NCBI GenBank assembly: GCA_004020545.1
Contig: SAQE01000004.1
Coordinates: forward strand, 62,001 to 126,000
Reading direction: 5' to 3'
DNA from: Mesorhizobium sp.
GTDB lineage: Bacteria; Pseudomonadota; Alphaproteobacteria; Rhizobiales; Rhizobiaceae
Length of the DNA: 64,000 nt
Numbering within the stretch: the first letter of the stretch is position 1; each line of letters opens with the position of its first letter. This document shows positions 3,977-46,041 of this stretch, one piece after another. The notes under the pieces were generated by a model. It saw nothing but the letters and a program-made list of their open reading frames with translations, did not search any database and had not been told where the DNA came from. The position numbers and the translations under genes were made by a program.

Positions 3977-4222
3977 CGCGAGGCGTAACGAACGCCTTTC
4001 CCGCCTCGCTGCGCGAGCCGCGAGCCGGGGAGGGCATGGGTTCCGGGCGGCGAACGCGCCCGATCGACGAGATGCCGGCTGTTGGTATCCCCCGCACCAT
4101 GGCCGCGTCCAGCGCGATTGCGAGTCTCTCTCCGCTTGAGGTGCTCGCCGCCCGGAAGCCCACCGAGCAATTCATGAGTAATGGCAAGCGTGCCTTGCCG
4201 GCCAATTGGACTGGACTGCGCC

Positions 4223-7200
4223 ATGACCACCGACAGCAGCACCGAAAAGCGGCCCTTCAACCTCTCGCGCTGGGCGATCGGACATCCGAGCATCGCCCGT
4301 TTCCTGTTCGGCCTGATCATCCTGGCCGGCGCGCTCGGCCTGATGCGCATGGGCCAGAAGGAAGACCCCGACTTCACCTTCCGCGTCATGGTGGTGCAGG
4401 CGGTCTGGCCCGGCGCCTCGATCCAGGACATGGAGGACCAGGTCGTCAACAAGATCGAGCGCAAGCTGCAGGAAACGCCGCATCTCGATTTCGTGCGCTC
4501 CTACACCCGCGCCGGCAGCGCCATCATCACCTTGCAGGTCAAGGGCGACACCAATTCGGAGGAGGTGAAGGACGCCTTCTACCAGGTGCGCAAGAAGGTC
4601 GGCGACATTGCCAACGAACTGCCGCAGGGCCTGCTCGGGCCGTACTTCAATGACGAGTTCGGCGATACCTTCATCACGCTGCATTCGATCAGCGGCGACG
4701 GCTTCACCTATCCGGAGCTGAAGAAGTTTGCCATCCAGGCGCGCGACATGCTCTTGACGACGCCGGGCGTCGAGAAGGCCGTCATCATCGGCGACCAGCC
4801 GGAGAAGATCTATATCGATGTCTCGTCCAAGGCGCTTGCCGAGCGTGGCCTGACCATCCTCGACCTGCAGAACGCCGTGAAAGGCCAGAACGCCGTCGAT
4901 CCGGCGGGCTCGGTCGACACCGGCCTACGCTCGGTCCGCATCTCGGTAGAAGGCGACGTCACCAGGGCCGCCGACATCCGTGAGTTGAGACTCCGCGCCG
5001 GCAACCAGGTGACGCGGCTCGGCGACATTGCCACTGTCACTTCCGGCCTTGAGGACCCCTACCAGCGCAAGTACCGCTTCAACGGCCATGAGAGCGTCCA
5101 GGTCGGCGTCGTCATGGCCAAGGGCTTCAACGTTCGCGATGTCGGCAAGGATGTCGAGGCGACCTACAAACGCTTCGAGGAGGGGCTGCCCTACGGCGTT
5201 GCGGTCGACCAGATCTCCGACCAGCCCGAGGTGGTCAAGGATGCCGTCAACGAGTTCATGGAGGCGCTCGGTGAAGCGCTGCTGATCGTTCTCGTGGTCT
5301 CGTTCCTGTCGATCGGCTGGCGCTCCGGCCTGGTGATCGCCATCGCCATCCCGCTGGTTTTAGCCGCCACCTTCGCCATCATGTATGAGATCGGCATCGA
5401 CCTGCAGCGCATCTCGCTCGGCGCGCTGATCATTGCGCTGGGACTGCTGGTCGACGACGCCATGATCGTCGTCGAGATGATGGAGCGAAAGCTTGAGGAG
5501 GGACTGGTCAAGATCGAGGCGGCGAGCTTCGCCTACTCCTCGACCGCCTTCCCGATGCTGACCGGCACGCTGATCACCACCGCCGGCTTCATCCCCGTCG
5601 GCTTCGCCGCCTCCACCGCCGGCGAATATGTGCGCACGCTGTTCTATGTCGTCGGTATCGCGCTCGTCGTGTCTTGGTTCGTCGCGGTCTATTTCACGCC
5701 GTGGCTGGGCTATATGATTCTGAAGCAGCGCAAGCACGCCGGCACCCATCATGATGTCTTCGACACGCGCTTCTATCGGCGCCTGCGCTCGACGGTCACC
5801 TGGGCCGTGCGCCATCGCATCATCGTCCTGGTGATGACGCTGGTCACCTTCGGTACCAGTCTCTGGGCCTTCCAGTTCATTCCGCAGAACTTCTTCCCGC
5901 AGTCCTCGCGTCCGGAAATCCTGGTCGATCTCTGGCTGCCGGAAGGCACCTCGATCAAGGAGGTCGAGAACCAGGCCAAGGTGCTGGAAGCCAGGATGAT
6001 GGACGATCCTGACAAGCGCTTCATCGCCACTTATATCGGCGAAGGCGCGCCGCGCTTCTTCCTGCCGCTCGACCAGCAGCTCAGGAACCCGAACTTCGCC
6101 CAGCTCCTGGTGATGGCCAAGGACGAGCCGGCGCGCGAGCGGCTGATCGTCAAGCTGCGCAGCATCCTTGCCAAGGACTTCCCCTCGATCCGTGGCAAGG
6201 TCGACCGGCTGTTCCTCGGTCCGCCGACCGGCTGGCCGGTGCAGATGCGCGTCATGGGTCCGGACCGCCAGGAAGTGCGCCGCATTGCCGACGAGGTGAA
6301 GGCGAGGTTCCAGGCGAACCCGCTGCTCGGCGCGGTGCATGACGACTGGCTGGAGCCGGTGCCGGCGATGAAGCTGGTGATCGACCAGGACCGCGCCCGT
6401 GCGCTCGGCGTCACCTCGCAGCGCATCCGCCAGATGCTGCAGGCCACCATGTCCGGCGCGCCGCTCGACGATTTCCGCGACGGCGAGGAGACGGTTTCCA
6501 TCGTTGCCCGCGAGCCCGAGGCGACCCGCAAGCTGCTGTCCTCGGTCGACTCGGTCTACATCCCGACCGACTTCGGCGGCTCGGTGCCGCTGTCGCAGGT
6601 GGCGAAGGTCGTGCCCGTCATGGAGCAGGGCATTGAGTGGCGGCGCGACCGCCTGCCGACGATCACCGTGCGCGGCACGCTGCCGGACGGCGTGCAGTCG
6701 AACGACGTCGTTACCAAGATGTACAACGACATGAAGGACCTGCGCGCCGGCCTTGCCCCCGGCTACGAGGTCGAGATCCAGGGCGGCGCGGAGGACTCGG
6801 CTGAAAGCCAGGCCTCGATCGCGGCCAAGGCGCCGATCATGCTCGCCATCATCGTCATATTGCTGATGGTCCAGCTCCAGCATTTCGGCAAGTCGATGCT
6901 GGTGCTGGCCACCGGTCCGCTGGGCATCATCGGCGCCGCCGCGGCGCTTCTGATCAGCGGCGCGCCGTTCGGCTTCGTCGCCATCCTCGGCGTCATCGCG
7001 CTGCTCGGCATCATCATGCGAAACTCGATCATCCTGGTCGATCAGATCGATCAGGACATCGCGGCCGGCATGGAGCGATCGGAGGCGATCGTCGGCGCCG
7101 CCGTGCGCCGCTTCCGGCCGATCATGCTGACGGCGCTGACCGCCGTGCTGGCGCTGATCCCGATCTCGCGCGCCGTCTTCTGGGGGCCGCTGGCCTATGC

Positions 7201-7372
7201 CATGATGGGCGGCATCCTGGTCGCGACCGTCCTGACCATCCTGGTGCTGCCGGCGGGCTACGCCCTGTTCTTCGGCCGCGCGCCCAAGAAGGCCAAGACC
7301 GACGAGCAGGTGCCGGAGCCGGAGCAGATCGAAGGCATCGAAAGACCGCAACTGGCGCTCGCTGCGGAATAG
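4223..7372 (+). CDS. RND family efflux transporter
   Basis: Inner-membrane proton-driven exporter of 1049 aa, typical RND length. One N-terminal transmembrane helix (about 22-42) is followed by a large periplasmic loop, then the helix bundle. TM4 carries the proton-relay aspartates in LLVDDAMIVVEMMERK, and the duplicated second half ends with GIIMRNSIILVDQID. The sequence style is the non-AcrB branch of RND pumps found in rhizobia (VexF/NolG-like), an inference by eye. ATG 4223 is preferred to 4181 because homologues begin shortly before the first helix. No outer-membrane channel gene is present, so a chromosomal TolC homologue would have to serve. The gap 3977-4222 holds nothing I recognise. 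Confidence 0.92.
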   Translation: MTTDSSTEKRPFNLSRWAIGHPSIARFLFGLIILAGALGLMRMGQKEDPDFTFRVMVVQAVWPGASIQDMEDQVVNKIERKLQETPHLDFVRSYTRAGSAIITLQVKGDTNSEEVKDAFYQVRKKVGDIANELPQGLLGPYFNDEFGDTFITLHSISGDGFTYPELKKFAIQARDMLLTTPGVEKAVIIGDQPEKIYIDVSSKALAERGLTILDLQNAVKGQNAVDPAGSVDTGLRSVRISVEGDVTRAADIRELRLRAGNQVTRLGDIATVTSGLEDPYQRKYRFNGHESVQVGVVMAKGFNVRDVGKDVEATYKRFEEGLPYGVAVDQISDQPEVVKDAVNEFMEALGEALLIVLVVSFLSIGWRSGLVIAIAIPLVLAATFAIMYEIGIDLQRISLGALIIALGLLVDDAMIVVEMMERKLEEGLVKIEAASFAYSSTAFPMLTGTLITTAGFIPVGFAASTAGEYVRTLFYVVGIALVVSWFVAVYFTPWLGYMILKQRKHAGTHHDVFDTRFYRRLRSTVTWAVRHRIIVLVMTLVTFGTSLWAFQFIPQNFFPQSSRPEILVDLWLPEGTSIKEVENQAKVLEARMMDDPDKRFIATYIGEGAPRFFLPLDQQLRNPNFAQLLVMAKDEPARERLIVKLRSILAKDFPSIRGKVDRLFLGPPTGWPVQMRVMGPDRQEVRRIADEVKARFQANPLLGAVHDDWLEPVPAMKLVIDQDRARALGVTSQRIRQMLQATMSGAPLDDFRDGEETVSIVAREPEATRKLLSSVDSVYIPTDFGGSVPLSQVAKVVPVMEQGIEWRRDRLPTITVRGTLPDGVQSNDVVTKMYNDMKDLRAGLAPGYEVEIQGGAEDSAESQASIAAKAPIMLAIIVILLMVQLQHFGKSMLVLATGPLGIIGAAAALLISGAPFGFVAILGVIALLGIIMRNSIILVDQIDQDIAAGMERSEAIVGAAVRRFRPIMLTALTAVLALIPISRAVFWGPLAYAMMGGILVATVLTILVLPAGYALFFGRAPKKAKTDEQVPEPEQIEGIERPQLALAAE

Positions 7373-21595: not shown

Positions 21596-22486
21596 TCAGA
21601 AATACCCGTCGGACGCCGCAGTCGCTTCCTTTGGAATCTCCACGCCGTCGACCAGGATCTTGTCGACCAGCTCGTGATGAAAGCACACCAATCCCTTGAT
21701 GCGCTCGGCCTCATGCACCGGCTCGGGATAATACCAGACCAGGTTCTCGTGCCGCTTCTTGGGTGTCGTCACATGGTAGTAGTTGGAGATGCCCTTGTAG
21801 GGGCAGCGCGAGATGTAGCGGCTGGGCGTAAACATATCGAGCCGCGTGTCCGAAATCGGCAGATAATGGCGCACCGGATGGCCGGTCTCGAACAGGAACA
21901 CGCCGCGCCGTGAATCGGCGACTTGCTCACCGTCGAGGATCACCTGCACCCGCCGCGAGGACGGCAGGCAGTCGACGCGGCGGAACGGATCGCGGGCATG
22001 GACGAAGATCTCCTCGTCCTCCTCCCACCAATGCGTCATCTTCGGCCAGTAGAAGGATATGTAGTCCGCGATCGGCGGACAGCCCTTGACCGGATCGAGA
22101 TAGCGCCAGGCGCCGTCCTCGACCAGCGTGATGCCGGTGTTGAGCGAATAATGCGTCGCGGTGCCCTTGAACGGATCCTCCGTCGTCGTCCTGCTCGGCA
22201 GCAGGAACTCCTCGCGCACGTCGCTCATCGGGAAGTAATAGACCGGCAGGTGGTCGCTCTCATAAAACACCAGCGCCTTGGTGGTGTCGGCGACGATCAT
22301 CGGCCCGACCTGCACGCGCAGCCGCTTGGGCGAGGGCATCGTGAAGGCGACATGGCCCGGCTCGAACTCATATTGCACGATATTGTCGAGCAGCGGGAAA
22401 TGCGGCCCGCGGCCGCGCAAATGAGGCTTGCGAATGGTAGTCTTCCTTTTCTCGTCGTTGGCAGCCAGGTTCTTGCGCGCGACCAT
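21596..22486 (-). CDS. Tandem DUF427-domain protein
   Basis: 296-aa soluble protein with two DUF427-like units (about 45-150 and 165-270). The repeat is visible as VQVGPMIVADTTKALVFYESDHLPVYYFP in the first half against VQVILDGEQVADSRRGVFLFETGHPVRHYLP in the second, followed by CPYKG in the second and PFKG in the first. DUF427 has no firmly assigned biochemical role. ATG 22486 starts 2 bases after the stop codon of the upstream binding-protein gene, so the two are translationally linked. That places this cytoplasmic protein in a peptide/opine-type uptake operon, where it may bind or process the imported compound. Confidence 0.85.
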   Translation of the reverse strand: MVARKNLAANDEKRKTTIRKPHLRGRGPHFPLLDNIVQYEFEPGHVAFTMPSPKRLRVQVGPMIVADTTKALVFYESDHLPVYYFPMSDVREEFLLPSRTTTEDPFKGTATHYSLNTGITLVEDGAWRYLDPVKGCPPIADYISFYWPKMTHWWEEDEEIFVHARDPFRRVDCLPSSRRVQVILDGEQVADSRRGVFLFETGHPVRHYLPISDTRLDMFTPSRYISRCPYKGISNYYHVTTPKKRHENLVWYYPEPVHEAERIKGLVCFHHELVDKILVDGVEIPKEATAASDGYF

Positions 22487-37151: not shown

Positions 37152-40100
37152 CTATTCGGCCGCCTGGGCGAGCGGCTGAGGCGCCGGCTCGGCGGTCGGT
37201 TCAATCTCTTGTTGATGCGGAGCATACTGGCGCCCCGTGGCGGGTTCGCTCTCGCCGCCGCGCTCGCGCAGCCTTTCGATCACCGCGTAGAAGACCGGCA
37301 CGAAGACCAGCGACAGGATCGTCGCCGCCACCATGCCGCCGAAGACGGTGGTGCCGATCGACTGCCGGCTGGCGGCACCCGCACCGGTCGCGAACATCAG
37401 CGGCAGCACGCCGAGGATGAAGGCGAAAGCCGTCATCAGGATCGGCCGCAGCCTCAGCCTTGCGGCTTCCATCGCCGCCTCGACGATGGTCAGGCCTTCC
37501 TCGCGCCGCCGTCGGGCGAACTCGACGATCAGGATGGCGTTCTTCGCCGCCAGGCCGATCAGCATGACGAAGCCGATCTGCGAGTAGACGTCGATCTGCA
37601 TGCCGCGCAGCAGCAGCACCACGAAAGCCCCGAACAGGGCAAGCGGCACGGCGAGCAGCACCATGAAGGGCATCGCGAAGCTCTCATACTGCGCCGCCAG
37701 GATCAGGAAGACGAAGACGATCGCCAGCCCGAAGACAACAGAGGCGATCGAGCCGGCTTTGAGCTCCTGATAGGTGATGCCCGTCCACTCATAGCCGAAG
37801 TCCCGCGGCAACACATTCGCCGCCGCCCGCTCCATCGCCGCCACCGCCTGCCCGGACGAGAAGCCCGGAGCCGCGCCGCCATTGATGAGAGCCGAGGCAT
37901 TGTTGTTGTAATGGGGCACGGTCTCGGGGCCGACGATCGGCACCAGCTTGCCCAGCGTGCTCAGCGGCACCATGCCGCCCGACGCGTTGCGCACGTAGAG
38001 CCGTGAGATGTCGGTCGCGTCGGCGCGCGCGTCCTTGTCGGCCTGGATGGTCACACGGAAGGTGCGGCCGAACAGGTTGAAGTCGTTGACGTAGAGCGAG
38101 CCGAGATAGATCTGCAGCGTGTTGAACACGTCCGGCAGGCTGAGGCCCAGAAGCTTCGCCTTGCTGCGGTCGAGGTCGTAGTTGAACTGCGGCGTCGAGG
38201 TCGAGAAGGACGAGAACAGCTGCTGCGGGTTGAGCTCCGGCTGCTTGCGCGCCTCGGCGATCAGCGCCTGCGTCACTTCGTTGAGCGCGGCGCTGCCACG
38301 GCCCGAAAGATCCTCCACCTGGAACTCGAAGCCGCCGGTGGTGCCAAGGCCCGGGATCGAGGGCGGATCGAAGGAGAGCGCGAAGGCTTCCGGCATCTGC
38401 AAGAGCTTGCCCCGCACCTGCTCGACCAGCTTCGAGGCGTTCTGCTCAGGCCCGCGCTCGTCCCACGGCTTCAGGATCGCGAACTCGACCGCCGAGTTCG
38501 ACTGTGCGGCGCTGGTCAGGAAGTTGAGGCCGCTGATCGAGCCGACGATGTCGACGCCGGGCGTGTTCTGCAGGATGTCGCGCGCCTTCTGCGCCACCGC
38601 GTCCGTTCGCTCCAGCGAGGCGCCGTCTGGCAACTGGATGACGACGAAGAAATAACCCTGGTCCTCCACGGGGAGGAAGGTCGAGGGCAGTTTCTGCCAG
38701 ACGAAATAGGTGGCGACCAGGCCGGCCGCGAACAGGCCGAGCATGGCCCAGCGCAGCTTGATCAGGATGCGCACGCCATGGGCATAGGCATGCGACAGCC
38801 AGTCGAAGCCGGCGTTGAACCACCGGAACAGGACGAACTGCGTCTCGCCGCGATGGCGCAGGAACGCCGCACTCAGTGCCGGGCTCAGCGTCAGCGAGTT
38901 GAAGGCGGAGATGCCGACCGAAATGGCCACCGTCAGTGCGAACTGGTTGTAGAGCCGCCCCGACACGCCGGGAATGAAGGCGACCGGGATGAACACCGCC
39001 GCGAGCACCGCGGTGGTGGCGATGATCGGCCCTGTCACCTCGGCCATCGCGGCGCGCGTCGCGGCAAGCGGCGCAAGTCCGGCTTCGAGCTGTCGCTCGA
39101 CATTCTCGACGACCACGATCGCATCGTCGACGACGAGGCCGATCGCCAGCACCATGCCGAGCAGCGACAGCATGTTGAGCGAGAAGCCCAGCATGTACAT
39201 CACCGCCAGCGTCGCGACGAGCGACACGGGAATGGCGATGGTTGGGATGATGGTGGTGCGCCAGCTCTGCAGGAAGATGAACACGACAGCCACGACCAGC
39301 ACCAGCGCTTCGCCGAGCGTGATCAGCACGTCATGCATCGAGGCCGAGACGAAGCGCGTCGTGTCGTAATGCATGGCGTAGTGGACGCCCTTCGGGAAGC
39401 GCGCCGACAGCTCCTGCATCTTGTCCTTGACCCGCTGCTGCAGGTCGAGCGCGTTGGAGCCGGGCATCTGGTAGACGGCGAGCACCACCGTCGGGTCCTT
39501 GCCGAAGAAGGCGGATGAGGAATATTGCAGCGCGCCGAGCTCGATGCGGGCGACGTCGCGCAGCCGCACGAGCGAGCCGTTCGCCGGATCGGCGCGCACG
39601 ACGATGTCGCCGAATTCCTTCGGGTCGCTCAAGCGGCCGACCGCGTTGACCTGCATTTCGAAGGCGGTGCCGGCAGGCGCCGGCGACTGGCCGATCTTGC
39701 CGGCCGCCACCTGCACGTTCTGTTCGGCGATGGCATTCTGCACGTCGACGGCGGTGATGCCGAGATTGGCCAATTTGTCGGGGTCGAGCCAGACGCGCAT
39801 CGAATAGCGGCGCTCGCCGAAGATCTGTACGTCGCCAACGCCGGGCAGCCGCTTCAGCGGGTCGACCACCTGCAGATAGGCGAGGTTGCTCAGCGCCACC
39901 GGATCGACGGAGCCGTCCGGCGAGGTGAGGTCGACGATCAAGACGAAATTGGGGTTCTGCTTCTTGATCGTCACGCCGCCCTGATTGACGATCGCGGGCA
40001 GGGAGGATGCCGCCTGCGAGACGCGGTTCTGCACGTCGACGGCGGCGGTGCTCAGCGGATAGCCGACATCGAAGGTGATGGTGATGGTCGAGGAGCCGTC

Positions 40101-40352
40101 ATTCGAGCTCGTCGACGACATGTAGGTCATGCCTTGCACGCCGTTGATCTGCTGTTCGAGCGGCGTGGTGACCGTATCGGCCACCACCTGCGCGCTGGCG
40201 CCGGGATAATGGGCGCTCACCACCACTTGCGGGGGCGTGATGTCGGGAAACTGTGAGACCGGCAGCAGGAAATAGGCGATCGCGCCGGCGAGCACCATGA
40301 TGATGGCGATCGCCGATGCGAAGATCGGACGGTGGATGAAGAAGTTCACCAT
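37152..40352 (-). CDS. RND multidrug efflux transporter (HAE1/AcrB type)
   Basis: 1066-aa inner-membrane drug/proton antiporter. The N-terminal helix MVNFFIHRPIFASAIAIIMVLAG, porter-domain segments (SQFPDITPPQVVVSAHYPGASAQ), TM4 with LAIGLVVDDAIVVVENVERQL (proton-relay Asp pair) and TM10/11 region GLAAKNAILIVEFARRRR all match the AcrB/MexB family at full length. Its ATG overlaps the stop of the small upstream ORF by 7 bases, suggesting coupled translation. It is divergent from the TetR gene, whose tandem operators lie upstream of the small ORF. Confidence 0.95.
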   Translation of the reverse strand: MVNFFIHRPIFASAIAIIMVLAGAIAYFLLPVSQFPDITPPQVVVSAHYPGASAQVVADTVTTPLEQQINGVQGMTYMSSTSSNDGSSTITITFDVGYPLSTAAVDVQNRVSQAASSLPAIVNQGGVTIKKQNPNFVLIVDLTSPDGSVDPVALSNLAYLQVVDPLKRLPGVGDVQIFGERRYSMRVWLDPDKLANLGITAVDVQNAIAEQNVQVAAGKIGQSPAPAGTAFEMQVNAVGRLSDPKEFGDIVVRADPANGSLVRLRDVARIELGALQYSSSAFFGKDPTVVLAVYQMPGSNALDLQQRVKDKMQELSARFPKGVHYAMHYDTTRFVSASMHDVLITLGEALVLVVAVVFIFLQSWRTTIIPTIAIPVSLVATLAVMYMLGFSLNMLSLLGMVLAIGLVVDDAIVVVENVERQLEAGLAPLAATRAAMAEVTGPIIATTAVLAAVFIPVAFIPGVSGRLYNQFALTVAISVGISAFNSLTLSPALSAAFLRHRGETQFVLFRWFNAGFDWLSHAYAHGVRILIKLRWAMLGLFAAGLVATYFVWQKLPSTFLPVEDQGYFFVVIQLPDGASLERTDAVAQKARDILQNTPGVDIVGSISGLNFLTSAAQSNSAVEFAILKPWDERGPEQNASKLVEQVRGKLLQMPEAFALSFDPPSIPGLGTTGGFEFQVEDLSGRGSAALNEVTQALIAEARKQPELNPQQLFSSFSTSTPQFNYDLDRSKAKLLGLSLPDVFNTLQIYLGSLYVNDFNLFGRTFRVTIQADKDARADATDISRLYVRNASGGMVPLSTLGKLVPIVGPETVPHYNNNASALINGGAAPGFSSGQAVAAMERAAANVLPRDFGYEWTGITYQELKAGSIASVVFGLAIVFVFLILAAQYESFAMPFMVLLAVPLALFGAFVVLLLRGMQIDVYSQIGFVMLIGLAAKNAILIVEFARRRREEGLTIVEAAMEAARLRLRPILMTAFAFILGVLPLMFATGAGAASRQSIGTTVFGGMVAATILSLVFVPVFYAVIERLRERGGESEPATGRQYAPHQQEIEPTAEPAPQPLAQAAE

Positions 40353-40830: not shown

Positions 40831-41415
40831 ATGATGACAGACGGCGTCGTGGAGCGTTCACGCCCCCGGGATCGGATCCTGGAGACGGCGCAGGACATGT
40901 TCCACAAGCACGGCATCAAGGGCGTTGGTGTCGACGCCATCACGGAGGCTGCCGGCACCAACAAGATGACGCTCTATCGTCACTTCGAATCCAAGGACGA
41001 ACTGATCATCGAATGCCTGCGCGCCACGGCGGCGAAGGCCTCAAGGATATGGGACGAGTTCGAGGCCGAGCATCCGGGCGACAAGCTGGCCCAGTTGCAC
41101 GCCTGGGTCCGCAAGGCTTCGGAACTGCTCAGCGTCGACAGCCGCGGCTGCGACATGGCCAATGCGGCGGTCGAGCTCACCGAGACCGATCACCCGGCAA
41201 GGCGCGTCATCAAGGAACTGAAGGAAGCCCAGCGCGAAAAGCTCGTTGCGCTTTGCCGCGATGCCGGGATTGGCCAGGCGGAGCTTCTCGCCGACACGCT
41301 GTCGCTGCTGCTTGAAGGCGCGCGCGTCTCGATGCAGAGCGTCGGCGCCGAAGGCCCCAGCGCGCAGTTCGTGCGCATGGCCGAGAGCCTGATCGCTTCA
41401 TTCCGGGCGCGCTGA
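40831..41415 (+). CDS. TetR family regulator of RND pump 2
   Basis: 194-aa repressor with HTH at about 10-60 (RPRDRILETAQDMFHKHGIKGVGVDAITEAAGTNKMTLYRHFESKDEL). The C-terminal domain has a DSRGCDMANAAVELTETDHPAR segment typical of a TetR subfamily controlling RND or redox genes. Start ATG 40831 (or ATG 40834) follows AAGGAG at 40822. Divergent from the small ORF-RND-adaptor operon, with the tandem operators between them. Confidence 0.93.
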   Translation: MMTDGVVERSRPRDRILETAQDMFHKHGIKGVGVDAITEAAGTNKMTLYRHFESKDELIIECLRATAAKASRIWDEFEAEHPGDKLAQLHAWVRKASELLSVDSRGCDMANAAVELTETDHPARRVIKELKEAQREKLVALCRDAGIGQAELLADTLSLLLEGARVSMQSVGAEGPSAQFVRMAESLIASFRAR

Positions 41416-41436: not shown

Positions 41437-41578
41437 CCCCCTCATCCGGCCCTTCGGGCCACCTTCTCCCTGTGGGGAGAAGAGGTTGGCGCCAGCGCTG
41501 ACGGTCCCCTCTCCCCAAGGGGAGAGGTCGGATTGCCCGAATTGCCCTTCGCAATTCGGTTGGCAATCCGGGTGAGGG
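41437..41578. repeat. Mosaic palindromic element (family B, copy 3)
   Basis: Begins CCCCCTCATCCGG and ends CCGGGTGAGGG, with internal hairpins CCTTCTCCC...GGGGAGAAG, CCTCTCCCC...GGGGAGAGG and GAATTGCCC...GCAATTC. It occupies the space between the TetR gene and the ar14-type RNA. The rest of the gap 41416-41851 is the sRNA and its promoter. Confidence 0.7.
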
Positions 41579-41605: not shown

Positions 41606-41721
41606 CGCAAAGAAAAGCCCGCTGCCGGGAGGAGGTGGCAGCGGGCTCGATTTCGAATACGGCACGGGAGGAGGTGTACCGTATTCACCGTCGGTGTCTG
41701 GGAGGAGGAAGACATCCGACA
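41606..41721 (-). ncRNA. ar14-type (NfeR-like) small RNA with three anti-Shine-Dalgarno loops
   Basis: On the minus strand three stem-loops follow each other, each with a CCTCCTCCC-containing loop. Hairpin 1 spans 41690-41720 (5+5 bp with one bulged A). Hairpin 2 spans 41655-41686 (11 pairs including a U-G wobble that would be an A-C clash on the other strand, which fixes the strand). Hairpin 3 spans 41616-41647 (11 perfect pairs), followed by TTTTCTTT as an intrinsic terminator. Length about 116 nt. This matches the ar14 family of alphaproteobacterial trans-acting sRNAs, whose anti-SD loops pair with mRNA ribosome-binding sites, reportedly of transporter genes. Expression here is inferred. 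Confidence 0.88.
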
Positions 41722-41727
41722 CCGCAA

Positions 41728-41756
41728 TAACTACGATTTGCCCAACGATTCGGCAA
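41728..41756 (-). promoter_or_regulatory. Candidate promoter of the ar14-type RNA
   Basis: Read on the minus strand: TTGCCG (41756-41751), 17-base spacer, TAGTTA (41733-41728), predicting a start about 7 bases downstream near 41721, directly before hairpin 1. The spacing is ideal; the -10 match is only partial. Confidence 0.5.
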
Positions 41757-41851
41757 CTGCGAAACATGCATAGCAGGTGTGCAGAATTGTCGCATCGCCG
41801 ACCAATCCTCCGACAAATCCGGACAATGCGCGTTTGCCAGGGCGCGCTAAC

Positions 41852-42886
41852 TCATTGAACCGGCACGTTTTCCTTGAAGATCAGCCGCGGCTCGATGAAT
41901 TTCTTCGTCAGATATGGCGCCGATGAGGCGATCGAGCCGAGCAAGCGGATCACGGCTTGCTCGGCGATCAGCCGCGCATTCTGGTCGATGACGACGTCGG
42001 CGAGATCGTCTACGAGATAGCGGCGCGTTTCCTTGGTCAGGTCATGGCAGATGAAAACCGGCTTCCGGCGCGGCCTGGATTCCAGCAACGCCCTCGCCAC
42101 GCCCGAGCGTCCCGCGCCGACGCAGTAGATGCCGAGCAGTTCCGGCTCGTTGTGGAGTGCCTTCATGGTCGCACTGTAGCTGGCGTCGGGCTCGTCGTTG
42201 ATCTCGACCGCGCTGGACACGGTGAGATTGGGAAACTCTTCGGCAAGCACCGAGCGGAAGCCCATCTCGCGCTCTTCATGGCCGCGATATGAGCGCGAGC
42301 CGACCACCATCGCCAGATGCCCGGTCCTGCCGCCGAGGAAGCGGCCCATCAACAGCGCCGCCGTGCGCCCGGCCACCCGGTTGTCGATGCCGACATAGGC
42401 CGAGCGGGGCGCCGCCGGCACGTCGGAGACCAGCGTCACCAGCCGGATGCCTGCCTCGACCAGCTCGCGCAGGATGTTGCGCGTGCGTGGGTGGTCGACG
42501 GCGATGACGCCGACGCCATTGGCCTTGAGCGAGAGGTTCTCGACCGCGCCCTGCAGCGCGCCGGGCGAAATGCCCGCGAGGTTGTGGATACGGCAGGAAG
42601 CGACCAGCGGCAGGCGCGCGGCATAGTCTTCGATGTGATGGGCGAGATCGGCCATGAAGGCGTTGCTGCCGATCGGCAGGAAGAATTCCAGATGAGCCGG
42701 CTTCGAGGGCAGCACGACCTGGTCGAGCGTCGGCAGATAACCGAGCTGCTTGGCCGCCTCCATTACCCGCTGCCGGTTGGCCGCGCTTGCGCCCGGCCGG
42801 TTGTTGAGCACCCTGTCGACCGTCGCGGTCGACAGGCCGCAGTTCCTGGCGATGTCGGCTACGGTGGCTTTCATGGGACCAGTCAT
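41852..42886 (-). CDS. LacI family transcriptional regulator
   Basis: 344-aa repressor: HTH TVADIARNCGLSTATVDRVLNNRPGASAANRQRV (about 8-42) and a periplasmic-binding-protein-like effector domain (LGYLPTLDQ onward, with VGIDNRVAGRTAALLMGRFLGGRTGHLAMVVGSR). ATG 42874 is an alternative start. Last gene of the sugar ABC operon, so it probably controls that operon in response to the imported sugar. A tandem 16-bp repeat lies directly upstream (42908-42955). Confidence 0.92.
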   Translation of the reverse strand: MTGPMKATVADIARNCGLSTATVDRVLNNRPGASAANRQRVMEAAKQLGYLPTLDQVVLPSKPAHLEFFLPIGSNAFMADLAHHIEDYAARLPLVASCRIHNLAGISPGALQGAVENLSLKANGVGVIAVDHPRTRNILRELVEAGIRLVTLVSDVPAAPRSAYVGIDNRVAGRTAALLMGRFLGGRTGHLAMVVGSRSYRGHEEREMGFRSVLAEEFPNLTVSSAVEINDEPDASYSATMKALHNEPELLGIYCVGAGRSGVARALLESRPRRKPVFICHDLTKETRRYLVDDLADVVIDQNARLIAEQAVIRLLGSIASSAPYLTKKFIEPRLIFKENVPVQ

Positions 42887-42907: not shown

Positions 42908-42955
42908 TTAGGCCAAATCAACGTCAGGCCAAATCAACGCCAGGCCCAATCAGCC
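42908..42955. repeat. Three tandem 16-bp repeats before the LacI gene
   Basis: Units TTAGGCCAAATCAACG (42908-42923), TCAGGCCAAATCAACG (42924-42939) and the diverged CCAGGCCCAATCAGCC (42940-42955). The third runs into the last codons of the ABC ATPase gene. They could affect spacing of the LacI ribosome-binding site or bind a protein. Confidence 0.7.
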
Positions 42956-43744
42956 ATGCGGCTGCGAACCCTCGGCGATGGCGTCGCGGATCTCCTTGTC
43001 CGACATGCCGGTGATGATGCGTTCGACCTCGGCAACCGTGGTCTGCTTCGGGTCGATGTCTTCGGCCACCACCTTGCCGCGGCGCATCACCACGATGCGG
43101 TCGACCACCTGGAAGACGTGATGGATGTTGTGGGCGATGAAGATGCAGGAGTGGCCTGAATCGCGGGCGCTGCGCACGAAGCTTAAGACCCCTTGCGTCT
43201 CGGCGACGCCCAGATTGTTGGTCGGCTCGTCGAGGATGATGAGATCGCTGTCGAAATGCATGGCGCGCGCGATCGCCACCGCTTGCCGCTCGCCGCCCGA
43301 CAGCGAGCCGATCGGTGTCGTCGGCGGGATGTTCTTCGAGATGCCGACTTGTTTCAGCAGCTCGCGCGCCACCGTGTTCATCGCCTCCTGGTCCATGCGG
43401 TTGAGGAAGCGCGGCGGCTTGATCGGCTCGCGACCGAGGAACAGGTTGCGGGCGATCGAGAGCTGCGTGACGAGCGCCGAGTCCTGATAAATGGTTTCGA
43501 TACCCTGTGCGATGGCGTCACTGGTGCTGCGGAAATCCACCTTTTTGCCGCGCACGAAGATATCGCCGCTGGTCAGCGGCACCGCGCCCGACAGCACCTT
43601 GATCAGCGTCGACTTGCCGGCGCCGTTATCGCCGAGCAGGCCGACGATCTCACGTTCGTTGACGTGGAAGTTGGCGTCCACCAGCGCCTGAACGCGCCCA
43701 TAGGACTTGCGGATGTTTTGCATGCGGATGAGCGGTTCGGCCAT
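42950..43744 (-). CDS. Sugar ABC transporter ATPase, single NBD (FrcA-like)
   Basis: 264-aa ATPase with a single nucleotide-binding domain: Walker A GDNGAGKST (38-46), LSGGERQAVAIARAM signature, Walker B LIILDEPTNNLG, and the H-loop IFIAHNIHHVF. The short, single-domain form contrasts with the tandem 502-aa ATPase of the SorC locus and resembles the fructose-type FrcA transporters of rhizobia. It lies 3 bases after the permease gene's stop and carries the operon into the LacI gene. Confidence 0.93.
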   Translation of the reverse strand: MAEPLIRMQNIRKSYGRVQALVDANFHVNEREIVGLLGDNGAGKSTLIKVLSGAVPLTSGDIFVRGKKVDFRSTSDAIAQGIETIYQDSALVTQLSIARNLFLGREPIKPPRFLNRMDQEAMNTVARELLKQVGISKNIPPTTPIGSLSGGERQAVAIARAMHFDSDLIILDEPTNNLGVAETQGVLSFVRSARDSGHSCIFIAHNIHHVFQVVDRIVVMRRGKVVAEDIDPKQTTVAEVERIITGMSDKEIRDAIAEGSQPHG

Positions 43745-43747
43745 GGT

Positions 43748-44734
43748 TCACGTCCCCGCCTGATGCCGGCGTTCGAGCCACGAGTGCAGCGCCATCATGC
43801 CAAGGATGATCGCGCCGATGAAGATGTTGTAGGCGAGCCCCGGCACGCCGATCAGCACGATGCCGTTGCGCATGACGCGCAGGATCAGGATGCCGAGCAC
43901 CGTGCCGACGATGGTGCCGCGCCCGCCGGTCAGCGCCGTGCCGCCGATCACCACCATGGCGATGACTTCGAGCTCGTAGCCGGTGCCGCTGTTGGGATTG
44001 GCGGCCGAGGTGCGCAGCGACGAGATGATGCCGGCGAGCGAGGCCATCACTGCCGACAGGATGAACAGGCCGACCTTGACGCGGTCGACGTTGACGCCGC
44101 GGGCGCGCGCCGCATTGGGATTGCCGCCAGCCGCCTGGATCCAGTTGCCGGTGCGGCTTTGCGTCAGCACGTAGCCGAGCACGATCGCGGCCCCTATGAA
44201 CCAGAACAGCGAGGCATAGATGCGGAACGGCCCGATGTAGAAATCGCCGACCAGCATGTCCGCCAGCCAGCTTCCTTCGGCGCTCCAGGTGCGTTGCGGA
44301 AAGCCGTCGGTGACGAAGAGCGCGGTGCCGCGCACGACCAGGAGCATGCCGAGCGTGACCAAGAACGACGGGATCTTGAGCCGGGTGACGAACCAGCCAT
44401 TGACCAGGCCGATCAAGGCCGCGACCACCAGCGCGACGGCGAAGCCCATCTCCAGCGAGGTGACGCCGCCATTGAACAGCGTCCACATCAGCACCGGCGA
44501 GAAGCCGAACAGCGAGCCGACCGAGAGGTCGAATTCGCCCGATGTCATCAGCAGGGTCATGGCCAGCGCGATCAGGCCGAGCTCGACGGTGAAGGCCAGG
44601 ATGTTGGAAATGTTCTGCGGCGACAGGAAATCCGGGTTGATGGCCCAGAAGACGACGAGTTCGATGATGAGCAGAACGAAGGGCCCGAATTCCGGCCGCG
44701 CGATAAAATTTTGGATGAAGGAACGGTTTTCCAT
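43748..44734 (-). CDS. Sugar ABC transporter permease (FrcC/RbsC type)
   Basis: 328-aa multi-helix inner-membrane permease. ATG 44734 (MENRSFIQNFIARPEFG) precedes helices ILAFTVELGLIALAMTLLMTSGEFDLSVGSLFG and later NPNSGTGYELEVIAMVVIGGTALTGGRGTIVGT, the conserved family segment. The longer frame to 44830 adds only non-homologous sequence. Operon with the SBP gene (102-base gap upstream) and the ATPase. Confidence 0.93.
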   Translation of the reverse strand: MENRSFIQNFIARPEFGPFVLLIIELVVFWAINPDFLSPQNISNILAFTVELGLIALAMTLLMTSGEFDLSVGSLFGFSPVLMWTLFNGGVTSLEMGFAVALVVAALIGLVNGWFVTRLKIPSFLVTLGMLLVVRGTALFVTDGFPQRTWSAEGSWLADMLVGDFYIGPFRIYASLFWFIGAAIVLGYVLTQSRTGNWIQAAGGNPNAARARGVNVDRVKVGLFILSAVMASLAGIISSLRTSAANPNSGTGYELEVIAMVVIGGTALTGGRGTIVGTVLGILILRVMRNGIVLIGVPGLAYNIFIGAIILGMMALHSWLERRHQAGT

Positions 44735-44836
44735 TGAGCCCGCGACGTGAAGGAATGGCCGACCATCTTTAAGAGGCAGGCGCGGCAAGACAGGGAAAAC
44801 GGTCGCGACTGTGATGTCGCGACCGCTCAATCGGGA

Positions 44837-45769
44837 TTATTTGCCGGACAGGATCTTGTCGTAGACGCCGGCGGTGTCCTTTTCGTAGAGCGCGCCGGTA
44901 ATCACGTTGAAACCCGGAGGGATGCCGGCCGAGGCCATCGCGGCAAGCGACAGCGCCACATAGCTGGTCGCCTGCGGATCCTGCCATTGCGCGGCGTTGA
45001 CGTAGCCGTTGAGCACTTCCTGGGTGGTATCGAGCGAGTTGCCCCAACCGACGACCGGGATCTCGCCCGGCTTGATGCCGACCTGGTCGAAGACGCGCTT
45101 GATCGAGCCGGTGACGAGGTCGCCGAGGCCGATGATGGCCTTCACCTTGCCCTTGTGCGCGGTGAGGTAGTCGACCATGCGGTTGATCACTTCGGCCTGG
45201 TCGAGCGTCGCTTCGGTCACCTCATAGGTGATGCCGAGCGGCCCGAACACGCTCTTGATGCCTTCCTCTTCCTGCACGCCATAGGTGGCGCCGGGAACCT
45301 CGACGGGCATCCAGACGAAGTCGCCCTTCTTCACCAGGCCCTTGTCGACCAGATATTGCGCCCAATGCTTGCCGAACGTCGTGTTGTCGCCGCCGACATA
45401 GGCGTTGAAGTTCGCCTTCGGGTCGGGCGTGTTGAAGTTGATGATCGGGATGTTGGCCGCGCGCGCCTCCTTGGCCAGTTCGATCAGGCTGCCCGGATCG
45501 GGGCTGGTGGTGGCTATGCCGTCGGCCTTGGCCGAGATGGCGGCGCGGATAGCTTCCTGCTGCGAGGCGACGTCGCCATTGTGGAACGAGGTGTTCACGG
45601 TGTTGCCGGTGTCCTTGGCCCATTGCTTGGCGCCGGCGAGGAAATAGGTCCAGACCGGATCGGCCGGGCCGCCATGCGAAATCCAGTAGAACGTCTTGGC
45701 CTCGGCCATCGCCGGAATGGCGATCGCCGCGATCAAGCCAAGCACGAGCAGTCTCAGCCTCGATAGCAT
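44837..45769 (-). CDS. Sugar ABC transporter substrate-binding protein
   Basis: 310-aa exported binding protein: signal peptide MLSRLRLLVLGLIAAIAIPAMAEA, then the type I PBP fold (FYWISHGGPADPVWTYFLAGAKQWAKD, VASQQEAIRAAISAKADGIATTSPD). ATG 45769 is chosen because GAGGAA precedes it and it places the signal peptide correctly; the long open frame to 45943 does not. First gene of the SBP-permease-ATPase-LacI group. The gap 45770-46041 (272 bases) must hold its promoter; no clear operator was seen. Confidence 0.93.
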   Translation of the reverse strand: MLSRLRLLVLGLIAAIAIPAMAEAKTFYWISHGGPADPVWTYFLAGAKQWAKDTGNTVNTSFHNGDVASQQEAIRAAISAKADGIATTSPDPGSLIELAKEARAANIPIINFNTPDPKANFNAYVGGDNTTFGKHWAQYLVDKGLVKKGDFVWMPVEVPGATYGVQEEEGIKSVFGPLGITYEVTEATLDQAEVINRMVDYLTAHKGKVKAIIGLGDLVTGSIKRVFDQVGIKPGEIPVVGWGNSLDTTQEVLNGYVNAAQWQDPQATSYVALSLAAMASAGIPPGFNVITGALYEKDTAGVYDKILSGK

Positions 45770-46041
45770 TCGATTTCCTCCCATGTTGAAAACTTTCCTC
45801 CGCATCAGGCGCGATGGGCCCCAAGGACCGCATCTCCTGCCAGCGCCGACCGGATGCGTTAGAGCATTCCCTTTTTCGGTTGCTGACAAGCCTCCATCGC
45901 CAATGGATGTTGGCACAGCGAAGCGCGCCATCAGCAATCCCATCAGATTGCATCAGTTCAGGCGCTATTTCCCCGGGCAAGCGGTGCCGTCGGCCCGTCA
46001 GTTGCCGGACCGTATGCGGTCTAACGGGCTCCGGTGCGGTG

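Follow-up and report, generated by a model that had tools for sequence, protein, structure and literature searches.

A probable free-standing ar14-family small RNA gene with a conserved locus and a candidate LsrB/VtlR-type promoter in Mesorhizobium

Mesorhizobium is a genus known for legume symbionts, and the gap that separates a TetR-family regulator gene from a LacI-family regulator gene in one of its genomes raises the question of whether it holds a small RNA (sRNA) gene in its own right, and what such an RNA would regulate. In the 64,000-nucleotide stretch of DNA analysed here (the window), family searches placed the TetR gene (PF00440) at 40831-41415 on the plus strand and the LacI gene (PF00356) at 41852-42886 on the minus strand, as a reading made from the sequence only had described when it proposed an ar14-type sRNA between the two. 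The Rfam covariance search which that reading had set beforehand as its test was positive: the ar14 model (RF02344) matched the minus strand at 41724-41611 over its full length (model positions 1-123), with an E-value of 1.5e-12 and a score of 78.8 bits (58.8 being the cut-off), and this was the sole over-cut-off Rfam match across the 64-kb window. Taken as a whole, the evidence is best explained by a free-standing minus-strand gene for a trans-acting ar14 sRNA of ~110 nt that has a promoter and a terminator of its own, a reading that we consider very probable and for which we infer expression from the sequence.

Folding of the minus-strand RNA gave three hairpins with an energy of -54.2 kcal/mol (z -7.79), which 0 of 200 shuffles equalled. 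Fold, motif scan and alignment placed hairpin 1 at 41689-41721, hairpin 2 at 41655-41686 and hairpin 3 at 41615-41648, all on the minus strand, each with the anti-Shine-Dalgarno (anti-SD) motif CCUCCUCCC in its loop (at 41708-41700, 41674-41666 and 41635-41627, respectively), in agreement with the three stem-loops originally described. CCTCCTCCC had three exact minus-strand copies in the sRNA and a single other copy in the window, at 22018 on the plus strand. Hairpin 3 is, as had been proposed, the stem of an intrinsic terminator: it is followed by UUUUCUUU and runs into the U-rich tail TTTTCTTT (41609-41616, minus strand). A generic terminator scan gave 0 sites at the sRNA because it takes loops of 3-8 bases, whereas the hairpin 3 loop has 10. 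The 5' end probably lies at ~41721, judging from promoter spacing and from the start of hairpin 1.

The strand had previously been deduced from a U-G pair in hairpin 2. The minus strand was upheld, but this argument is insufficient alone: the plus strand folded almost as stably (-54.7 kcal/mol, z -4.90), with a small bulge in the U-G-bearing stem, so that energy by itself cannot settle the strand. What sets the strand is the covariance match in combination with the U tract, the conserved promoter block upstream and the U-G pair; the last of these (alignment columns 52/70) was found in 52 of 68 sequences.

Orthologues were taken from the best 80 of at least 529 LacI relatives (the best-80 set); among the relatives listed, those named were nearly all Mesorhizobium. 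Promoters were counted in 79 of these loci; the remaining one (L132), with TTCCTCCC as its first loop, was left out of the promoter counts and of the alignment. After 12 of the 79 had been dropped as identical, the window copy and 67 distinct orthologues made up an alignment of 68 Mesorhizobium sequences. The RNAalifold consensus kept 99.6% of 2108 paired cells, while sliding the partners by 1-3 columns brought pairing down to 34-51%, in a test tilted towards the structure, which had itself been derived from these same, mutually related sequences. Two-sided changes affected 7 of the 31 pairs (67 cells), values that 0 of 500 shuffles reached; the number of further pair types was unremarkable in this alignment (198/500 shuffles). 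Thus, the three-hairpin structure is maintained through compensatory changes, and the window copy and its orthologues display the ar14 trait of stems that vary in sequence while structure is kept. The loops were similarly constrained. Of the best-80 loci, 27 had three copies of the full 9-mer CCUCCUCCC, 52 had two and one had a single copy, so that 53 lacked it in at least one loop; the 8-mer CTCCTCCC was present three times in 79/80, which points to a frequent form of hairpin 1 with the motif one base shorter.

The surroundings of the gene were equally stable. Upstream of LacI on the same strand lie an ABC transporter ATPase gene (42950-43744), a permease gene (BPD_transp_2, 43748-44830) and the gene of a solute-binding protein (SBP; Peripla_BP_4, 44837-45769), all identified by family search. 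The sRNA was downstream of LacI in 80/80 loci of the best-80 set, with a convergent TetR gene in 78 and the SBP gene in 78, the exceptions being loci that end at contig ends. Since LacI is the last gene before the sRNA and its stop codon lies only ~130 bases away, the RNA could be the 3' end of an SBP-permease-ATPase-LacI transcript that mainly represses the SBP of its own operon, as a dedicated feedback. Across 146 genus genomes, the sRNA with its promoter was matched in 130 (E <= 1e-6) and LacI in 130 (E <= 1e-60), two of the latter (G058, G092) scoring only like distant paralogues; close LacI and sRNA occurred together in 128, sRNA alone in 2, LacI alone in 0 and neither in 16, a co-occurrence that agrees with the feedback idea and is inflated by the relatedness of the genomes. 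Both genomes with the sRNA alone tell against it: one (G118) has sRNA, promoter and TetR with the LacI gene absent, and in the other (G055) the same three elements remain while all that matches LacI is a 40-residue remnant next to a different ABC operon. Moreover, ~2.7 kb with other open reading frames separate LacI from the sRNA in 4/80 loci of the best-80 set. Retention of sRNA and promoter away from LacI indicates a self-contained unit, and on the strength of G118 and G055 we reject an RNA that is solely an operon 3' end; the feedback alternative is, also in view of the conserved promoter described below, very unlikely. In three further genomes (G154, G045, G083), the LacI match was partial or in two pieces and the sRNA match nearly full length. 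TetR, LacI and the ABC operon were found at 0/30 ar14 loci of other genera (the best-scoring loci, ~1.5 kb on each side).

Conservation also delineated a probable promoter. A block reading CAAATCTGCACAnCnGCTATGCA ... TTGCCGAATCrTTGGGCA was strongly conserved across the 79 loci of the best-80 set and contains a core promoter inferred from this conservation, TTGCCG-N17-TAGTTA (-35/-10; 41728-41756, minus strand), whose pattern TTGCCG-N17-TA..T occurred in 79/79 promoters; a generic sigma-70 scan found no promoter at the sRNA. Upstream of it, a 17-bp dyad, TGCACACCTGCTATGCA (41767-41783, minus strand), was present as TGCACAnCnGCTATGCA in 74/79 and with the core TTGCCGAATC-rTTrrGCA in 75/79 promoters of that set. 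A second element of the form TGC-N11-GCA, TGCCGAATCGTTGGGCA (41739-41755, minus strand), overlaps the -35 hexamer 28 bases downstream of the dyad in 79/79 promoters and is possibly a second regulator site.

The dyad resembles the published LsrB/VtlR box, GCAT-N3-TG-N3-T (PMC7486931, PMC8844928), from which the window copy differs by one mismatch, and this suggests a candidate LsrB/VtlR site. The best match to the box in the 79 promoters of the best-80 set (100 bases each) was exact in 49, a single mismatch away in 29 and two mismatches away in 1, compared with 1.3% exact and 19.6% one-mismatch matches in shuffled promoters, so that the window copy's own box is equalled in about one fifth of shuffled promoters. 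Exact boxes numbered 8 in the 64-kb window, against 7.9 expected, with none at the sRNA gene. On a scale whose zero point precedes the first loop motif by 12 bases, 63 is the start of the window box and 62-65 that of the orthologue dyads, with the box one base later; in 30 ar14 loci of other genera, which are the best-scoring family loci and not a random sample, exact boxes stood at 65-66 in 8 and two more, with one mismatch, at 65. Window and other-genus boxes thus agree in position within 2-5 bases only. An earlier candidate for the LsrB site, TGCA-N6-GCA, was present in 30/79 promoters of the best-80 set and was dropped in favour of the dyad. The compound promoter in its exact form occurred in 2/151 family genomes, the sample's only two members of the genus, and the exact core promoter of Sinorhizobium meliloti, CTTAGAC-N17-CTATAT, in 0 of 81 family genomes, being too strict a pattern to inform. 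A comparable promoter precedes an AbcR-type ar15 sRNA of the source genome (L274, G000:C137:27009-27123): it carries an exact LsrB/VtlR box 61 bases before the 5' end and two TGC-N11-GCA elements, and the same 3.1-kb locus contains a LysR-type gene, presumably LsrB.

The dyad could instead be an NtrC site, in which case the gene would answer directly to nitrogen. As a TGC-N11-GCA sequence, it has the form given for NtrC in the promoter of the S. meliloti sRNA NfeR1 (PMC10746234), and this form occurred at the dyad in 78/79 promoters of the best-80 set, compared with 2.0% of shuffled promoters having it anywhere. However, the dyad lies near the position of the LsrB element of NfeR1 and not near that of its NtrC site (-116 to -101 in the published description); where NfeR1 has the latter, the corresponding part of the window (41791-41851) is without TGC-N11-GCA. 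The two elements of this form in the AbcR promoter of the same genome speak against such an assignment as well. Furthermore, in 79/79 promoters of the best-80 set the dyad departs by 3 or 4 mismatches from TGCACC-N5-GGTGCA, an NtrC consensus. We therefore regard direct NtrC control as unlikely and favour the candidate LsrB/VtlR site, at which a LysR-type regulator of this kind, bound ~54 bases before the start, would turn transcription on, as published for NfeR1.

What would the RNA act upon? Each loop would base-pair with Shine-Dalgarno sequences, for example in the mRNAs of solute-binding proteins, and so bar ribosomes from them. The best predicted target among 45 window genes, roughly called and with gaps, was the SBP of the adjacent ABC operon, whose Shine-Dalgarno GGGAGGA (45776-45782, minus strand) is complementary to UCCUCCC in the loops: pairing with its leader reached -15.1 kcal/mol, equalled by 1.2% of 3000 random 40-mers. 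Four other window genes taken for SBPs by eye gave -4.9 to -11.6 kcal/mol, so that the suggestion that the many ABC genes of the window are targets fits the adjacent operon well, by predicted pairing, and not these four. Underlying that suggestion was the ability of ar14 RNAs to lower translation of ABC transporter mRNAs, which is in print for NfeR1 (PMC10746234). GGGAGGA was conserved in 76 of 77 orthologous SBP leaders of the best-80 set (the exception having GGAGGA; L097, L103 and L105 were left out for want of a match or because of a cut contig). This conservation and the first rank of the SBP would suit the dedicated operon feedback considered above, but GGGAGGA also precedes 12 of 30 Peripla_BP_4 loci examined (of 41 found in the genome, some of them LacI-type regulators), and the match to the neighbouring SBP is thus not special. 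In the whole genome, GGGAGGA-N3..9-ATG occurred at 170 sites, compared with 10 for the reversed pattern; one of 30 sites viewed was without a reading frame, and of two such genes searched in Pfam, one encoded a DctP-type binding protein and the other had no match. The loop motif resembles the ribosome's own anti-SD core, and any strong Shine-Dalgarno sequence will consequently score as a target. The SBP class fits the published ar14 targets, although strong Shine-Dalgarno sequences may have other causes. The start region of ntrB, a proven NfeR1 target, was not predicted as a target (-8.7 kcal/mol, equalled by 28% of random 40-mers, with the start codon picked by eye). Under the free-standing gene reading, the sRNA probably shuts off nutrient-uptake genes through their ribosome-binding sites, and the SBP mRNA of the neighbouring operon would be its best target in the window and one of many in the genome.

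A silent, decaying paralogue without function has to be weighed too. Only one of the six ar14 copies of S. meliloti was reliably detected by Northern blot according to the published account (PMC7143759), so a silent window copy is possible. Moreover, of the 40 candidates listed in an sRNA survey of M. huakuii 7653R (PMC5596092), none is named ar14 and none lies near 0.94 Mb, the position expected from synteny with a genus genome (G009). There, 77 kb separate the window-type sRNA from a cobalamin riboswitch, with MH_s10 (RF02879) a further 193 kb beyond, a spacing that agrees with that of MH_s9 and MH_s10 in M. huakuii, in opposite orientation; in G009, MH_s10 was matched by Rfam RF02879 with 149.1 bits (L281, 10082-10224). 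Candidate MH_s16 (123 nt, minus strand, between a plus- and a minus-strand gene) was rejected as the match of the window locus since it maps to 2.80 Mb, while synteny points to 0.94 Mb; MH_s16 and MH_s15 (2.73 Mb) are probably other genes. Because the M. huakuii candidates were drawn from a comparative screen, a missing entry carries little weight, and the structure, the loops and the promoter are all under constraint in the 68-80 loci compared. A functionless paralogue is accordingly most improbable.

The window copy is one of four over the cut-off in the 7.0-Mb source genome. On contig C122, a tandem pair (L001, G000:C122:187939-188216) directly follows a DUF1127 mini-protein gene in a CIN1/CcsR-like arrangement, and one relative (L177) has four ar14-type RNAs in a row; the remaining copy (L004, G000:C125:22810-22922; 70.2 bits) lies on C125, shortly 3' of a phasin gene (Phasin_2). 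Matches to ar14 were present in 119/119 sampled genus genomes (over the cut-off in 118; 1 to 10 per genome) and in 107 of 111 family genomes (over the cut-off in 100). Elsewhere in other Mesorhizobium genomes, we observed further close relatives of the window copy, two with the dyad promoter kept (L171, L172) and three with an unrelated upstream region (L173-L175).

The ar14 family, its structure, its multi-copy habit and its SBP targets are in print (PMC10746234, PMC7143759, PMC3927594). Its founding member is NfeR1 (Smr14C2/SmelC397), most of whose candidate targets encode ABC systems and for which the SBP mRNAs SMc03121 and SMb20442 were confirmed by reporter assay (PMC10746234). Like the window sRNA, NfeR1 is described as having three hairpins each with CCUCCUCCC; its sigma-70-type core promoter is preceded by an LsrB-type element (PMC10746234), of which the window dyad is the candidate equivalent. 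Compared by this published description, it differs in its core promoter, CTTAGAC-N17-CTATAT, and in targeting ntrB. Repeated hairpins with CCUCCUCCC loops and several copies per genome also characterise the Cuckoo RNAs/SmelA075 family and CcsR1-4. Unlike these, the window copy is single and seemingly has its own promoter, and it has LacI upstream, whereas a DUF1127 gene lies directly upstream in CIN1/CcsR (PMC10253847 for the CIN1 locus), which the C122 pair fits. AbcR1/AbcR2 (alpha-r15, RF02345) are, per the published papers, likewise anti-SD sRNAs acting on SBP mRNAs, and one of the two ar15 copies of the source genome has the same kind of promoter element as the window sRNA; they differ in forming a separate covariance family with two anti-SD motifs (PMC7143759) and in binding Hfq (PMC8844928). 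An ar14-type RNA with fragmented microsynteny has been reported in Phyllobacteriaceae (PMC3927594), and the window copy may already figure in the supplement of that report. What appears new is the conserved Mesorhizobium locus with its promoter, which we did not find in the main texts of the open-licence literature. With its location and promoter retained in 130/146 genus genomes and an LsrB-like element ahead of it, this copy is a natural candidate for the Mesorhizobium equivalent of NfeR1, an sRNA with an effect on S. meliloti nodulation. The stronger proposal of a Mesorhizobium ar14 branch with a two-site LsrB promoter next to a sugar-type ABC operon that is the genus's NfeR1, has the neighbouring SBP as its dedicated target and forms one unit with the transporter seems quite improbable to us.

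Two minor features of the window may be recorded. Just 3' of the sRNA, 41437-41578 is a dispersed repeat, with copies ~72-96% identical occurring many times in the genome and in relatives, which we take to resemble rhizobial RIME elements. Farther away, the open reading frames at 4181-7372 and 37152-40352 (1063 and 1066 residues) have, judged by eye, the look of RND efflux pumps.
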